From NCBI RefSeq assembly GCF_029814825.1, contig NZ_CP122379.1, positions 2,728,001 through 2,792,000 of the forward strand: a stretch of 64,000 bases of DNA, written 5' to 3'. Shown here piece by piece: positions 41,345 through 47,897 of the stretch. A program made the translations under genes and the position numbers. This DNA comes from Aequorivita marisscotiae (GTDB lineage: Bacteria; Bacteroidota; Bacteroidia; Flavobacteriales; Flavobacteriaceae). Every line of letters begins with the position of its first letter. Within the stretch, counting starts at the first letter, position 1. Below the pieces are notes generated by a model. It worked only from the letters and a program-made list of their open reading frames with translations. It made no database searches and was not told where the DNA came from.

Positions 41345-41464
41345 TTAACCTGGATTAATATTTGCTCCAGGCTTAGGTTTCGCCTTTGGTTTTGCCGAAG
41401 CTTTAGCAGCAATTGGTTTTGCCGGCTTCTTTTTTTCTGTATTGTTTTCTGGTTTTTTCCCCAT
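41345..41464 (-). CDS. Small basic Lys/Ala/Pro-rich protein
   Basis: 39 residues: MGKKPENNTEKKKPAKPIAA followed by further AK and KPK repeats and ending GANINPG. It is strongly basic and probably disordered, resembling histone H1-like or nucleic-acid-binding tails. It has an in-frame ATG, a clean stop and terminator on its downstream side (41292-41320). A TACCTTTA element upstream on the minus strand resembles a -7 box. Coding status is plausible but not proven. Confidence 0.5.
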   Translation of the reverse strand: MGKKPENNTEKKKPAKPIAAKASAKPKAKPKPGANINPG

Positions 41465-41593: not shown

Positions 41594-43558
41594 ATGAAGC
41601 TTAGCTCCTTTTTTAAGCAGTGCCACGAAAAGGAAGTCTTTAAAATGTTGTCTATTTATGTGGTTTCTGCGTGGATTATCTTACAAGTTCTCGCAGTAAC
41701 TTGGCAACCATTGGGGCTTCCCGAAAAATCCGTTACTTTTTTAATTATAATTTTATTGCTTTGTTTTCCTATTTATATTTTTCTTCTTTGGAAATTCAGA
41801 TTAGCCAAAATTCATCAAGCTGAAATCGCGCAAAGCGAAAAGAAACCCAAGAAAGAACTAGCCTTTCGGAAAACATATTTCTCGGCTCTTGGAATAATCG
41901 CTTCATTATGTGTAATTGCCGTATTCTTAATAGTAAACAAGAATTTTTTACCCGCTAACAATTCCCTGCCAAAAATTATTAGTAGCGATAAGATTGCTGT
42001 GCTAAAATTTGGTAATAATACGGGAGACCATAAATACGACATTGTAAGTAAAATGGCCTCAGACTGGATAATCCACGGCATTACCGAAAACCAAGTAGCG
42101 CAGGTAATAACACAAGATTTAGTAGATGAATATAGAACAATTTTAAAAGGAAAAAAAATTGAGGAAGACGAATCAACCATTGTACGCGAATATCTAAAAC
42201 CCAGTAAAATAATTTCAGGAAATTTCTATCTCAAAAATGAAAAACTTCTCTTTCAAGGGATGTTGATAGATGGAAAAACCAATAAAACCATTATATCGTT
42301 TAAACCTACACAATGTCTTGCAACCAACCCTCTAGAGTGTATTGAAGATTTAAACGAATCTATAACTGGCTATTTTATTACAAAAGATAAGCAAAAGTTA
42401 ATGCTGCAAGAAACACCGCCAAAATATGAAGCGTACAAATTGCTACTTGAAGCTAAAAACAGCAACGAAAACGAAACTTATATTAACCTTTTAAACAGAG
42501 CAATAGCTTCAGATTCTACTTATTTTGAACCAAAAGTGCTCCGTGTGGCCCATTACTACAACCAACAAGATTTTAAAACGGCAGATTCTCTCTTAAACTT
42601 AATTAAACCAGATTCGTACACCAATAAACGACAGTTAAACCTGCTAAATATGTACGAAGCGCTTTTAAAAGGCGACAATCGTACTGTGTATAAAACGCTT
42701 TTAAATGAGTACAAAATTGCGCCTTTCGATTTAACCACCAATAAAACCGCTATGGTGGTAGCGCTGCAGTTTGTTAATAAGCCGGAAGATGTGGAAGCTA
42801 TTTACAAAGTGATCCCGATGGACAGTATAAACCTTCAAAACTGTTCAGATTGCGTGGCGCGGATTTATGTAAACGCTTATGCCAATATAGAATTGGGCAA
42901 TTATACGGCGGCGCTACAAACCATTGAAGATGCACAAAATAAGTTTGACGCCAAAATTTTAAACAAACCGCTTGCTATTGCCTACGTTCGTGCCAATAAA
43001 ATTGAGGAGCTCGACCAATTTCTTAGAAAAATAGAAATTACGAATTCCCCCGCCGAAGTAAACGACTTGTATTTACAGGTAGGGAAGGAGTTTTTATTGA
43101 AAAATAACAAAACCAAGGCCATGGAATATTTTAAATATATTCTAAATTCAGACTCCGCAATTGTGGCGCCGGTAATGCTTGCAGAAGCACTGTTTTATGC
43201 TGAAGCGTATGAAAAGGCCGAAAAGATTTTAAACACCCACTACGCCAATAATCCCACAGACGTTGAGGCATTGTCAAAGTTGGCAATTTGTAATTTTAAA
43301 ATGGGCAACCAAATAAAAGCCGAATCGTACCTCGAAAATTTAGAAACGTTGCCTTTAAAATATCAATTTGGAAGTATAAACTACGCACTAGCGCAGTATT
43401 ATGCTGCCACAGATAATCAGCCTCAATTTCAAAACCATCTGCTGAAAGCGGTAGCTAACGGACATAAATACCATTGGAAGTTTTTCAAAAACGATCCTCA
43501 ATTTTTGAAATACAGCAACACGGCAGTGTTTAAAGAAGCAATGAACTTTTGGAAATAG
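41594..43558 (+). CDS. Membrane-anchored TolB-like/TPR protein, first gene of the caspase-TIR cluster
   Basis: 654 residues. Three transmembrane helices near the N-terminus (about 18-38, 46-66, 92-113) include the module VFKMLSIYVVSAWIILQV and GLPEKSVTFLIIILLLCFPI, which is common in bacterial TPR/adenylate-cyclase-like regulators. A TolB-N/FlgO-like domain follows (about 130-275: DKIAVLKFGNNTGDHKY, KIISGNFYLKNEKLLFQG). The rest is helical tetratricopeptide repeats (about 280-650, for example DFKTADSLLNLI and AYEKAEKILNTHYANNPTD). Such proteins act as scaffolds or sensors. It is followed 36 bases later by the caspase gene. Confidence 0.8.
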   Translation: MKLSSFFKQCHEKEVFKMLSIYVVSAWIILQVLAVTWQPLGLPEKSVTFLIIILLLCFPIYIFLLWKFRLAKIHQAEIAQSEKKPKKELAFRKTYFSALGIIASLCVIAVFLIVNKNFLPANNSLPKIISSDKIAVLKFGNNTGDHKYDIVSKMASDWIIHGITENQVAQVITQDLVDEYRTILKGKKIEEDESTIVREYLKPSKIISGNFYLKNEKLLFQGMLIDGKTNKTIISFKPTQCLATNPLECIEDLNESITGYFITKDKQKLMLQETPPKYEAYKLLLEAKNSNENETYINLLNRAIASDSTYFEPKVLRVAHYYNQQDFKTADSLLNLIKPDSYTNKRQLNLLNMYEALLKGDNRTVYKTLLNEYKIAPFDLTTNKTAMVVALQFVNKPEDVEAIYKVIPMDSINLQNCSDCVARIYVNAYANIELGNYTAALQTIEDAQNKFDAKILNKPLAIAYVRANKIEELDQFLRKIEITNSPAEVNDLYLQVGKEFLLKNNKTKAMEYFKYILNSDSAIVAPVMLAEALFYAEAYEKAEKILNTHYANNPTDVEALSKLAICNFKMGNQIKAESYLENLETLPLKYQFGSINYALAQYYAATDNQPQFQNHLLKAVANGHKYHWKFFKNDPQFLKYSNTAVFKEAMNFWK

Positions 43559-43594
43559 TATTTTGTTTTTTTGCACTTCCGTAATTTTAAAAAT

Positions 43595-45829
43595 ATGGCA
43601 AAATTAAGAAACGCGCACGCACTGTTAATTGGAGTGGGGAAGGACCTGCCCGAGTCTGCTACAGATGCCAAGGCAATTTACAATATCTTGGCAAGTAAGG
43701 AGTACGGAGGTTATTTCAAAAAAAATATAAACTTACTCACTAATAAAAAAGCTACACGAAAAAATATTCTCGACGCTTTCGAGAAGCTTTCACAAATTAC
43801 GGATGAAAATTCTTCCGTATTAATCTATTATTCCGGTCACGGCGGCACATATAGCGATAATACTTTTATAAAAGACGAAGCGCTTAAAAAGCCAGAAATA
43901 CAAAACCAAAAGTATTTTCATTTATGTCCAAATGATTACGACCCCAACAATTATAAAACCACCTGGGTAAAAGCCGAAGAAATTAAAGACAAAATTCAAC
44001 AATTAAAATCCCGTCGCTTAATTTTTTTTCTAGACTGTTGTCACGCAGCGGGAATGACGGCGGGCGTTTCCAGCTTTGGAGCACGGCCCCAACTTACAAA
44101 TGCAGACGGTCTGGCCCAAAATCTGGACGATGGCCGTGGTATGACGATTGTTTCTGCATGCCGTGCCAACCAACTATCGTATATTATGGAAGGGGATGAA
44201 AACAGCCTTTTTACAAAATGTATGCTCGAAGTTTTAAAAGGTGAAAACAAACAAGAAGACGATGAGCCATTGGTACGTATTTTTGAAGTAGTACAATATT
44301 TATTTAAAAAGGTACCTCAAGTACATCCAGAGCAAAACCCGTATGCTAACTTGCAGATATTTGAAGATTTTGTGGTGAGCTTTGCTTCAAATTCAATAAA
44401 AAATAAAACTGAAATAACTAAAACTAAAGCTTTAGAAAATTCACCTAAAATCACTACAAAAGAGCCTGTTACAAAATTTAGGGAAACTAAAAACGGCAAT
44501 AGCGCCATTCTGTTTATTCACGGTTTTTCAGGAGATGCCGAAAATACCTTTTCCGAAGCCCCAATGTTGCTAATGAACAATAAGGCTTTTGATGGGTGGG
44601 ATATGTTTCCGTTAGGTTACAGCAGCAATATTGTTCCCGAAATGGGCAAGAATATTTGGGCCTGTGCGAGCGATATTAAGCATAATTCAGATTATTTGTG
44701 TTCTTCGATTAAAAATAAGTTTTCAAAATACAAACGCATTGCCATAATTGCGCACGATTTGGGTGGCATTGTAGCCCAACAAGCACTAATTGCTTTAGAT
44801 CCCGCAGATCTTGAAAGAATAAGCCACGTTTTATTTTTTGCTACCCCCAGTAACGGCCTCCCGGAACTTGCGCTCAAAGACTTTTTTACCTACGCCAATG
44901 ACGAAAAGGAGTTAAAGGAGGGAAGTGTCTATATAAAAAATTTGCGGGAGCGATGGAATAAAGCTTTTAAACACGGCTATCCCTTCACCTTTAAAACAAT
45001 TGCGGGCAGCAAGGATGAATATGTACCATTAAGCTCAAGTTTGGCGCCCTTTAACAAAAAATATCACGAGTTAATTGAAGGCAGTCATTTTTCGATAGTA
45101 CAAGTTGAAAATGAAGCCGATGACGGGTATCAGGCTATTTTAAAAACCTTAACCGATAAAAGTTTTCTGAACAAATTCTCCAATAAAGAAGAAATTAACA
45201 TTGCTTTGGGCGAATATAAAGCAGTAATAAATTCACTGCTTCCGAAGATAAAAACGCTGGATGGTAAAGGAGTAGAGCGATTAATATACGCACTGGAAGG
45301 CGCGGGTAGGGAGGAAGAGGCCGTAAAAATTTTGGAAGCACACCCGTTGGCAAAAAACAACTCAAATTTATTGGGAATACTGGGCGGCAGGTACAAACGG
45401 CAATATTTAAAAACGTTTACCGCCCACGATTTATCGATGACATATAAATATTACAACGGTGCTTTAAAAATAGCCGAAGCTAAAAACGATTATTCACAAA
45501 TTTATTATCACGCTATAAATTTGGCTTTTGTAAGTTTAATGAAAGGCGAGAGGCCCGAAATGACGGTATTTGCCAATAAAGCCTATGAGGCAACCATACT
45601 GGATCCGTTCCCCAGTCTCTGGAAGTTTGCCACCGTGGGCGAAGCGTATCTGTATAAAGGAGAATTTGAAAATTCGAAGAACAACTATGCAAAAGCCGCA
45701 GCAATGGCTGGATTACGCGAAAAACTGTCAATTTATACCAATGCGTATAACGCGTACACTAACTTAATGCAAACCGATAATCCCAAAGATGTGTTTGTCA
45801 AATTCCTAAGAATGAATTTTTTATCGTAA
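43595..45829 (+). CDS. Caspase-family protease fused to an alpha/beta-hydrolase and TRAF-binding-type TPR domain
   Basis: 744 residues from the ATG at 43595 (an in-frame TTG at 43571 is less likely). Residues 1-265 are a peptidase C14 caspase-like domain with the dyad His82 (IYYSGHGGT) and Cys149 (FFLDCCHAAGM). Residues about 300-520 are an alpha/beta-hydrolase (AILFIHGFSGDAENTFS; acid and base near Asp474 and His498 in GSHFSIV) whose nucleophile elbow reads AHDLGG, with Asp388 where Ser is expected. Residues about 535-744 are helical, with LGGRYKRQYL and the repeats typical of prokaryotic TRAF-binding (MAP3K-like) domains. The layout matches effector proteins of bacterial conflict systems. 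Confidence 0.85.
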   Translation: MAKLRNAHALLIGVGKDLPESATDAKAIYNILASKEYGGYFKKNINLLTNKKATRKNILDAFEKLSQITDENSSVLIYYSGHGGTYSDNTFIKDEALKKPEIQNQKYFHLCPNDYDPNNYKTTWVKAEEIKDKIQQLKSRRLIFFLDCCHAAGMTAGVSSFGARPQLTNADGLAQNLDDGRGMTIVSACRANQLSYIMEGDENSLFTKCMLEVLKGENKQEDDEPLVRIFEVVQYLFKKVPQVHPEQNPYANLQIFEDFVVSFASNSIKNKTEITKTKALENSPKITTKEPVTKFRETKNGNSAILFIHGFSGDAENTFSEAPMLLMNNKAFDGWDMFPLGYSSNIVPEMGKNIWACASDIKHNSDYLCSSIKNKFSKYKRIAIIAHDLGGIVAQQALIALDPADLERISHVLFFATPSNGLPELALKDFFTYANDEKELKEGSVYIKNLRERWNKAFKHGYPFTFKTIAGSKDEYVPLSSSLAPFNKKYHELIEGSHFSIVQVENEADDGYQAILKTLTDKSFLNKFSNKEEINIALGEYKAVINSLLPKIKTLDGKGVERLIYALEGAGREEEAVKILEAHPLAKNNSNLLGILGGRYKRQYLKTFTAHDLSMTYKYYNGALKIAEAKNDYSQIYYHAINLAFVSLMKGERPEMTVFANKAYEATILDPFPSLWKFATVGEAYLYKGEFENSKNNYAKAAAMAGLREKLSIYTNAYNAYTNLMQTDNPKDVFVKFLRMNFLS

Positions 45830-45833
45830 TTTA

Positions 45834-46076
45834 ATGGCAAAATTAAACTTAATGTTGAAGTTTACCCAAAACAAGACCCCAAAGCTGAATTTCAAAAAAG
45901 CACTTAAAAAGCCTATACCCGTAAAATGTGTTCAGATAGACGAGCCATTTGAGGTAGAAACTATGGAAGGTGTAATGAAAGGCAAAGCTGGAGATTGGCT
46001 AATGATAGGCGTTAACGACGAAAAATACGTCTGCGATGCTTCCATATTTAAAAAAACCTACGAGCTAATGAAATAA
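45834..46076 (+). CDS. Small protein of the caspase-TIR cluster, unknown
   Basis: 80 residues, basic N-terminus (KLNFKKALKKPIPVKC) and a conserved C-terminal motif GDWLMIGVNDEKYVCDASIF followed by KKTYE. This motif (a GDWLxxG ... PCxxxIFxxTYE pattern) is seen in small proteins of phage and bacterial genomes of unknown function. It starts 4 bases after the caspase gene, so it is translated in the same unit. It may be an adaptor or regulator of its neighbours. Confidence 0.65.
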   Translation: MAKLNLMLKFTQNKTPKLNFKKALKKPIPVKCVQIDEPFEVETMEGVMKGKAGDWLMIGVNDEKYVCDASIFKKTYELMK

Positions 46077-46104
46077 AATCAGTTTAATGTAAAACCCGTA
46101 AGCC

Positions 46105-47148
46105 ATGAGTGGAAAAAGAATTTTTATCAGTTATTCCAGGCGAGATATAGATTATGTAAAATCGTTAGTAGAAGCGTTGCGCTCGCAAGGCTTTGAAGTT
46201 TGGTTTGACAAAAATATTATGACGGGCAACGATTGGGACGATACCATAGAAGAAGAAATAAAAAAGGCAGATGCGCTGGTGCTAATTCTGTCTAAAACTT
46301 CGGTATCTTCAGATCCTGTAAAAGATGAAATGTCCTACGCATTAAGCTTAGGAAAGAGTTTAAACCCTATAAAAATAGAGGAGTGCGACGTTCCCATGCG
46401 CTTGGCACGAAAACAATTTATAGACTTTGAAGCACTTGGTCACGAATTGGGTTTTGAGAGATTGGTAAAAGATTTAACCCTTCAACTAACCGATAAGCCA
46501 AAAGAGAAAGTAACCGTACAAAAAGGTACATTTAAACCCCCGGTGAAACAGCAACAACGCCCCCAAAATTATACGGCAAGACGGCCAAAATCTAACAATA
46601 ATTCATTGATTATTGGTGGGATAATAATTGGTGGAGGCGCAGTGGTTATTTTGATAGTTTTTCTTATAGTAGTTTCGTTACAGTCAGATTATTCAGAAGA
46701 TTACGACACATACGACAACACAGACTCTTTTGTAGATTACAATGTTCCCCAACAAACGGGAACAATAGAAGATCAAGATTGGAATACTACTTTAAACAGC
46801 AATAACTTAGACGGGTATTTAGCCTTTTTATATACCTATGGAAGGACTAGTAAATATTACGATCAAGCTTATGAAATAATTAACCAAATGTTGCCAAAAT
46901 CGGCTACGGTCTGGTACGGCGTACAAGGAGGTAATTACAACTTTACGAAATATTTATTCTATGATGGCGACAATTCTACACCGCCACAATACGACGATAT
47001 AATTACCCCAATCTATAAAAGCGAACTCTATGAGGGCGAAAACTTTGTACGCAATGGAAATTATGTGCAACCGGGCCAGCGATTATTGGTTTACGACACT
47101 TGGGTAGATGCCAATTACAATATTTGGGCAAGGATTCGGTATAATTAG
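46105..47148 (+). CDS. TIR-domain membrane protein with extracytoplasmic SH3-like tail
   Basis: 347 residues. The TIR domain (2-130) starts KRIFISYSRRDIDYVKSL and has the conserved SKTSVSSDPVKDEMSYAL region where Glu75 sits at the position of the catalytic glutamate of NAD-cleaving TIRs. A proline- and Gln-rich linker leads to one transmembrane helix (about 167-192). The C-terminal part (about 230-347: ATVWYGVQGGNYNFTKYL ... QRLLVYDTWVDANYN) looks like an SH3-type domain and would be extracytoplasmic. This topology suggests sensing outside and an NADase or signalling domain inside. It ends the four-gene cluster. Confidence 0.85.
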   Translation: MSGKRIFISYSRRDIDYVKSLVEALRSQGFEVWFDKNIMTGNDWDDTIEEEIKKADALVLILSKTSVSSDPVKDEMSYALSLGKSLNPIKIEECDVPMRLARKQFIDFEALGHELGFERLVKDLTLQLTDKPKEKVTVQKGTFKPPVKQQQRPQNYTARRPKSNNNSLIIGGIIIGGGAVVILIVFLIVVSLQSDYSEDYDTYDNTDSFVDYNVPQQTGTIEDQDWNTTLNSNNLDGYLAFLYTYGRTSKYYDQAYEIINQMLPKSATVWYGVQGGNYNFTKYLFYDGDNSTPPQYDDIITPIYKSELYEGENFVRNGNYVQPGQRLLVYDTWVDANYNIWARIRYN

Positions 47149-47353: not shown

Positions 47354-47653
47354 TTATTCTAATTGCAGATTTTGCTCATAATCCATTTGCTGACTCAATA
47401 CCCTAATTATAAAAATTTCGTCTAACGACTTGAAATAAAAAATGGTATGTGATTTAAAACTGAATCTTTTTAAATTATCTATAAATTCAGAAGCATCTCG
47501 ACCTAAATTTACATTTCGGCCTAGAAGTTTAAAAGTTTCTTGCATCTCGAAAAAATACTTCTGAGCTTGAATAAGTCCAAATTTACTTATCCCAAATTCA
47601 TACATAATTTCTAAATCAAACTCAGCTTTACTCGAAAGTTTATAAACGCCCAT
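47354..47653 (-). CDS. RelE/ParE-family toxin
   Basis: 99 residues of the RelE/ParE fold (MGVYKLSSKAEFDLEIMYEF ... FEMQETFKLLGRNVNLGRD ... RFSFKSHTIFYFKSLDEIFIIRVL). Conserved features of ParE (an early Ala-Glu-x-Asp-Leu pattern, the Ser-x-x-Phe strand and a final I-R-V-L strand) are present. ParE toxins poison DNA gyrase; RelE toxins cut mRNA, and which applies is not decided here. It overlaps the antitoxin gene by 14 bases. Confidence 0.85.
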   Translation of the reverse strand: MGVYKLSSKAEFDLEIMYEFGISKFGLIQAQKYFFEMQETFKLLGRNVNLGRDASEFIDNLKRFSFKSHTIFYFKSLDEIFIIRVLSQQMDYEQNLQLE

Positions 47654-47897
47654 CCTTTTTCATACGAGTTTCAACATCCTTCATTATTTCTGGAAGCGTT
47701 TTGTTACCCACACCACTATCCAAACCTTCAATAAGTTTAGACTTTAACGCAAGGAAGTCAACACTTTTAGCTTGATCTTGCCTTACTAGATTGCGTATGT
47801 ATTCGCTATCATTAGTAAATTCTCCCGCTTGGATTTGAGCTTTAATCCATTCATCCTGTTGTTGAGTAAGTGTAATTGTTTTCCGAATTGTTGCCAT
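47640..47897 (-). CDS. ParD-family antitoxin
   Basis: 85 residues with an N-terminal ribbon-helix-helix (TIRKTITLTQQQDEWIKAQI ... SEYIRNLVRQ) and a C-terminal toxin-binding tail. It precedes the toxin on the same strand in the usual antitoxin-toxin order with overlap, and very probably represses its own promoter. Confidence 0.88.
   Translation of the reverse strand: MATIRKTITLTQQQDEWIKAQIQAGEFTNDSEYIRNLVRQDQAKSVDFLALKSKLIEGLDSGVGNKTLPEIMKDVETRMKKDGRL

Follow-up and report, generated by a model that had tools for sequence, protein, structure and literature searches.

Type IV Thoeris (Rousset et al. 2025), as described in PMC12847820 and PMC13373217, is a characterised TIR-caspase defence system, and PMC12847820 describes N7-cADPR from the TIR protein as activating the caspase-like protease. 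It is the nearest known system to a four-gene cluster of Aequorivita marisscotiae (Flavobacteriaceae) that lies in the window analysed here, a stretch of 64,000 nt covering positions 2728001-2792000 of the 3.45 Mb single-contig genome. Four intact open reading frames (ORFs) on the + strand, at 41594..47148 of the window, specify in order a membrane protein (g1), a caspase/alpha-beta-hydrolase/TPR-S protein, a small protein (g3) and a TIR protein, just where the original prediction, made from the sequence alone, had drawn them. Like type IV Thoeris, the cluster joins a TIR protein to a caspase-like protease, probably within one operon: the protease has its catalytic His and Cys, and the TIR protein carries the NADase glutamate (Glu75), the intervening gaps being 4 and 28 bp. 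Compared with the characterised proteins by description only, it differs in that the TIR spans the membrane (one transmembrane, or TM, segment) and varies in its outside domain, the caspase bears a hydrolase and a TPR-S domain, g1 and g3 are added, and the modules are separable and co-occur with an unlinked CHAT/TPR-S gene. By analogy, we regard the set as a TIR-caspase system of the type IV Thoeris kind in outline, not as a demonstrated member; PADLOC and NCBIfam gave no match of that name, it not being established whether either holds such a model. The earlier statement that no characterised system with this exact set was known is corrected in so far as a characterised TIR-caspase defence system exists. 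The new points are the receptor-type TIR and its unlinked CHAT/TPR-S companion.

The gene for g1 (654 aa) occupies 41594..43558 and that for the caspase protein (743 aa from ATG) 43598..45829; the TTG at 43571 is a mechanical ORF start, and the ATG at 43598 is where homologues start. They are followed by g3 at 45834..46076, whose true start may be the ATG at 45852, and by the TIR gene (347 aa) at 46105..47148. With gaps of only 39, 4 and 28 bp, the four genes probably form an operon, and since their order is the same in other genera, a chance explanation of the cluster is very unlikely. The charged loops suggest a topology in which the TPR part of g1 and the C-terminus of the TIR protein lie outside, and the TIR domain and the caspase inside.

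The TIR protein matches TIR_2 in Pfam (9e-26) and is predicted to consist of a cytoplasmic TIR domain (about residues 1-130), a TM segment (170-192) and an external part of helices and a beta-barrel. It has both the TIR fold and the catalytic glutamate of NADases, and Glu75, which had been said to be kept, is Glu in 32 of 33 homologues. All 91 pairs among 14 Aequorivita-type TIRs align in the TIR domain (median 68%), compared with 37 of 66 pairs in the C-terminal part (median 29%), a comparison made on 12 proteins because the C-terminus is almost missing from the other two. One homologue ends in a Fib_succ_major domain. Such divergence is what a diversifying sensor would show. The label 'SH3-like' for the external domain rests on modelled secondary structure, because TIR matches filled the fold-search lists. 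One of our alignments (A4) omits a truncated TIR (L083:3741-4940; L and G numbers denote loci and genomes). Eight loci (L046, L047, L048, L085, L090, L093, L097 and L099) have a separate downstream TM gene, all of these genes belonging to one family, and the product of the L048 gene matches the C-terminal part of the window TIR protein (27%, E 6e-8), so that the latter appears to fuse parts that other loci keep separate. Elsewhere in the genome, at about 57-59 kb, a TIR is fused to a DeoR-type C-terminal sensor domain (L170:5290-6645) and adjoined by a gene for a small protein with two hydrophobic stretches (L170:6660-7058), possibly another TIR system. A TIR/DUF4062 protein at about 2.67 Mb (L171:3221-6978) adjoins an nSTAND1 gene and is a candidate TIR-STAND pair.

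In the caspase protein, a Peptidase_C14 domain (E 2e-19) covers 43616..44341, and its catalytic His and Cys are invariant across 38 homologues. Counted from the ATG these are His81 and Cys148, one less than the numbers first given (His82, Cys149). The alignment of 38 omits L036 (contig end), L042 (a run of N), L105, the duplicates L088 and L092 (of L046 and L047), and proteins that were below 400 aa or that the profile did not pick up at 1e-20. The alpha/beta-hydrolase domain has approximate borders at 44495..45157 (DUF676 2e-4, PGAP1 4e-4). Its nucleophile is Asp instead of Ser in Aequorivita (AHDLGG), so the window protein lacks the Ser of a GxSxG-like elbow that defines serine hydrolases; among 22 rows, Asp is found in 17 from Aequorivita (window included), Gly in G002 and Ser in four outgroup proteins. 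Because of this replacement the hydrolase, the third enzyme of the set, may be dead in Aequorivita. The hydrolase and TPR fusion had been predicted, with the TPR region assigned to a TRAF-binding type; the fusion stands, and the region is a TPR-S domain in Pfam (PF20308, 45215..45532, 1.7e-11), its 45.0 bits exceeding the curated cut-off of 27.6. TPR-S is a predicted messenger sensor, and a sensory role in this protein is plausible. Burroughs and Aravind reportedly predicted in 2020 that TPR-S senses NAD-derived signals, and the window has in common with such systems a Pfam TPR-S fused to a peptidase beside a TIR. Only two solved structures match TPR-S by sequence, both with E above 0.4. In the same genome, at about 0.37 Mb, beta-propeller repeats are fused to a C-terminal caspase domain (L169:6873-10148).

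The protein heading the cluster, g1, has three hydrophobic segments (about residues 15-37, 39-71 and 93-121) followed by TPRs predicted to lie outside. It had been described as a TolB/TPR membrane protein; the hydrophobic segments and TPR-like repeats are there, the repeats being all that Pfam detects, and a TolB/FlgO-like region after the segments is our own reading, outside Pfam, with a weak FlgO match in one g1 homologue. A small unknown protein had been noted between the caspase and TIR genes. The ORF, g3, is indeed present, and it resembles the PGDYG profile (1e-5), its 26.1 bits lying just under the cut-off of 27. Relatives of g3 occur in 308 of 50,697 phage records, with no functional name among the 15 matches listed, and g3 is missing from only three of the TIR-bearing loci scanned (L048, L069 and L099). 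No solved structure matching g3 by sequence was found, and homology to the N-terminus of the CHAT giant described below was rejected (hhalign probability 1.1). It may be a regulator of TIR/TPR-S or a co-opted phage domain.

A second described system bears on the region 5' of the caspase. Kaur et al. 2020 (PMC7159879) describe an EACC1-caspase membrane system with a small membrane gene 5' of the caspase and variable C-terminal domains. Relatives of the window cluster are like it in having a small TM protein, X, in this position: X lies between g1 and the caspase in nine of the 16 listed loci outside the genus, in two Saprospiraceae loci and in G002, and it is not found in the window or the other Aequorivita loci. 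X was compared over 12 alignable rows; the row for L048 in the same comparison is not an X homologue. Two X proteins scanned had no EACC1 match, and the identification of X with EACC1 was rejected. In the window, which differs in having no X, g1 lies 5' of the caspase and has no EACC1 match, and the NCBIfam model caspase_w_EACC1 gives 75.4 bits against a cut-off of 140. In types I and II Thoeris the TIR has as its neighbour ThsA, an effector of SIR2-SLOG or TM-macro type; the window TIR is flanked instead by g3, the caspase and parDE. Unlike a bare metacaspase or paracaspase fold, the window caspase is fused to a hydrolase and TPR-S. Passages of PMC7159879, PMC8195603, PMC9503650, PMC13232231 and PMC13174449 did not mention the set of g1, caspase/hydrolase/TPR-S, g3 and membrane TIR. 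A limited literature search, which is no proof of absence elsewhere, found nothing on TPR-S with a prokaryotic caspase and TIR, nor on an Aequorivita caspase, PGDYG, or Thoeris with a CHAT domain.

In the explanation we favour, and to which we give about an even chance, a TIR receptor in the membrane makes a messenger that licenses proteases bearing TPR-S, both in cis and in trans. The variable external domain of the anchored TIR would sense a trigger at or outside the inner membrane, likeliest phage attack or envelope damage. The cytoplasmic TIR, to judge from the kept Glu75 and the fold, would cleave NAD+ to an ADP-ribose-type messenger and, by analogy with type IV Thoeris, the TPR-S of the caspase would bind this messenger and release the protease, stopping or killing the cell. 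In Aequorivita the same receptor would also serve an unlinked CHAT-type TPR-S protease, as their co-occurrence suggests. The small protein g3 may be a partner in the TIR/TPR-S step, and g1 a membrane partner of the caspase, with which it is found in every relative, in some species without a TIR. Catalysis, messenger, trigger and topology are what we infer, as is the role in defence. A more specific version is tentative, and we think it rather unlikely to hold in full: one TIR receptor, through one NAD-derived messenger, would command the adjacent caspase and the CHAT protease about 583 kb away via TPR-S; lineages with an altered TPR-S (Gly597Glu) would be without TIR, g3 and CHAT together; and g3, common in phages, would gate the TIR/TPR-S step.

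A caspase-TIR set of conflict-system type, as originally proposed, is real and conserved, and it recurs in other Flavobacteriaceae. Among 148 relatives searched, the caspase occurs in 21, of which 18 are among the 28 Aequorivita genomes; g1 is present in all 21, and it adjoins, or is one gene away from, 21 of 21 caspase copies in the 20 stretches compared. The TIR (E <= 1e-20) occurs in 15 of the 148. Outside Aequorivita, the TIR adjoins the long caspase in 13 of 16 listed loci (not L081, L087 or L091) and g3 does so in 15 (not L048). Among 56 other, more distant caspase loci listed, at most six have a TIR match, clear in L099 and L129, at E 2e-9 in L116, and weak or fused in L103, L107 and L115; the difference in adjacency (13/16 vs 6/56, all six counted) gives a Fisher p of 2e-7. 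These 72 loci came from the best 80 matches, the pattern-scan matches listed and the relatives' search; L081, L083 and L090 are truncated where their contigs end. Neither L031 nor L087 is in alignment A5, the first row of which begins nine codons into its listed ORF. At L047:4259-13645 (G088) there are two tandem g1-caspase copies, only the second with g3 and TIR, and at L093:13071-14633 a second caspase frame lies at the stretch end, downstream of a g1-caspase-g3-TIR set.

The set does not behave as a single unit. Modules of g1 and caspase occur without TIR, and at the same chromosomal site g3 and TIR occur without caspase in G008, G020, G026 and G065 (the gene flanking this shared site is one we take to be TerC-like). 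An obligate four-gene unit is rejected, and g1+caspase and g3+TIR are two separable modules. In the gene-neighbourhood comparison suggested with the original prediction, the gene order recurs in other genera, and TIR and caspase do not covary within the genus; overall, the original interpretation is partly supported.

The caspases of seven Aequorivita genomes (G003, G005, G007, G010, G011, G016 and G018) form one TIR-less clade in the caspase tree (99/99). The g1 tree, in which G002 is a long branch, rejects this clade (approximately unbiased test, p 1e-56), and in the rpoB tree, from which G007 is missing, the remaining six genomes are scattered. Because of these conflicts the caspase with its TIR-less downstream region appears to have spread by recombination, and plain vertical descent is rejected. 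CHAT is absent in all seven and present in 10 of 11 other caspase-bearing genomes (not G002; p 3e-4); in G007, a genome of 69% completeness, the contig stops after the caspase. The only diagnostic site is 597, in the TPR-S helix 589-606, where the TIR-less allele has Glu in place of Gly (codon 45386..45388 in the window). A residue counted as diagnostic if it was fixed in the five aligned members of the seven and absent from ten g3-bearing Aequorivita caspases (including L031, which has g3 and no TIR), and if at least 70% of these ten together with 12 outgroup rows shared one ancestral residue; the remaining two of the seven also read Glu597 in another alignment. Across the 38 caspases, Gly597 is found in 26 of 26 with adjacent g3, and Glu, Asp or His in the other 12, for which g3 was not found (one of the 38, L102, ends about 690 bases after the caspase gene). 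As this represents about two events on the tree, the association of Gly597 with g3 is suggestive only.

The unlinked companion is a CHAT giant of 1832 aa (genome 2185568-2191066, L168:2569-8067), about 583 kb from the TIR, with two hydrolase regions, a CHAT domain (7e-27) and TPR-S (1.5e-10); biotin-carboxylase genes follow it. It occurs in 16 of the 148 relatives, only two of them among 120 genomes outside the genus (G040 and G065). Of 27 genus genomes placed on an rpoB tree (the 28th, G007, having no rpoB match), 12 have both TIR and CHAT, none has TIR without CHAT, two have CHAT without TIR and 13 have neither. TIR and CHAT covary on this tree (likelihood ratio 24.6, p 6e-5), and in 8580 simulations of independent histories the observed agreement was never reached. 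The covariation persists after two incomplete genomes are dropped (p 3e-4) and on 25 of 25 sampled bootstrap trees with unit branches (p <= 2e-4). The table for 148 genomes (13/2/3/130, p 4e-14) is uncorrected for kinship. By two of three tests, TIR and CHAT co-occur beyond kinship. Control families are alike in CHAT-positive and CHAT-negative genomes (N6_Mtase, 54 vs 48 hits, p 0.59; integrase, 90 vs 94, p 0.89), and a general effect of defence-rich and defence-poor genomes was rejected on these counts, other TIR genes being the ones that differ.

Evidence that weighs against the membrane receptor explanation comes from several sides. A caspase of the type IV Thoeris kind would be expected to depend on its TIR and to be inherited with it; across the 27 Aequorivita genomes the two do not covary (p 0.54), the adjacency in other genera nonetheless being seen in 13 of 16 loci. 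In G005, G011 and G018, genomes that are 99% complete, the caspase is found without any TIR_2 match (E <= 1e-6), so it cannot always depend on such a TIR. These observations, with the occurrence of each module apart at the same site and the conflict between the g1 and caspase trees, would fit two independent modules sharing a site, a caspase activated by g1 and a TIR acting as an NAD-depleting effector held by g3, with no messenger between them. We consider this unlikely, if a serious contender: in other genera the TIR adjoins this caspase architecture far above other caspases, and in all 38 caspases residue 597 goes with g3, an agreement that reflects about two tree events.

The link to CHAT has its own counterexamples. 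In a more cautious test, that of independent sister pairs, four pairs change in the same direction, none in the opposite and two are ties, which is non-significant (sign test p 0.125). CHAT occurs without TIR in G014 and G021, and TIR and caspase without CHAT in G032, G035 and G088. CHAT-positive genomes also have more of the other TIR genes (20 vs 4 hits, p 0.002), so the link may be to TIRs generally or to an unmeasured lineage effect. Taken at face value, the covariation of TIR with CHAT and not with the caspase, and the retention of CHAT in four of four TIR-only genomes, could mean that the true partner of the TIR is the CHAT/TPR-S giant and that the caspase is a neighbour reading another signal. 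We hold this to be improbable, since beyond Aequorivita the TIR adjoins the caspase and the giant was found in only two of the 120 genomes searched there, and since G032 and G088 carry TIR and caspase without it.

Unlike many defence genes, the cluster has a fixed chromosomal site: of 17 further Aequorivita stretches, 16 have the same upstream neighbours and the last is too short. The phage, plasmid and viral collections yielded no full-length copy, the phage collection giving no match at 1e-10, nine plasmid records matching only one third of the protein (the caspase part), and one viral contig matching at 22%; a mobile location was rejected. This fixity, with the sensor parts predicted outside and the N-terminal class III cyclase on a g1 homologue in Saprospiraceae L096, is compatible with a stress or developmental cell-death device, or one of envelope maintenance, rather than phage defence. 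That seems quite improbable to us, because the variable external part and patchy presence look like those of conflict systems, as do the SIR2 and nSTAND1 companions in the same Saprospiraceae relative. There (L096, 5143-13695) a cyclase-g1 fusion is followed by X, a short caspase, SIR2-EAD11 and nSTAND1; the locus gave no TIR match, and L104 has the same gene order.

On the far side of the TIR gene, a ParE/ParD-type toxin-antitoxin pair (47354-47897, - strand) adjoins the cluster. It had been taken as a pointer to defence and looks incidental: a tblastn search of 20 relative stretches, one of them just 4.8 kb long, gave no match to parDE, which was rejected as part of the set. Divergent from g1, a 39-aa Lys/Pro-rich frame (41345-41464, - strand) ends in KPKPGANINPG, and an identical or nearly identical ending is found in five relatives (L034 and L039-L042).

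If the membrane receptor explanation is true, bacterial TIR signalling would extend beyond the two-gene operon, with one transmembrane TIR driving proteases in cis and in trans, and the receptor would have the layout of a Toll-like receptor, with its sensor outside and its TIR inside. The natural Gly/Glu difference at residue 597 offers a ready test of what TPR-S binds, and the 28 sequenced Aequorivita genomes hold natural combinations of TIR, caspase and CHAT presence and absence for comparison.

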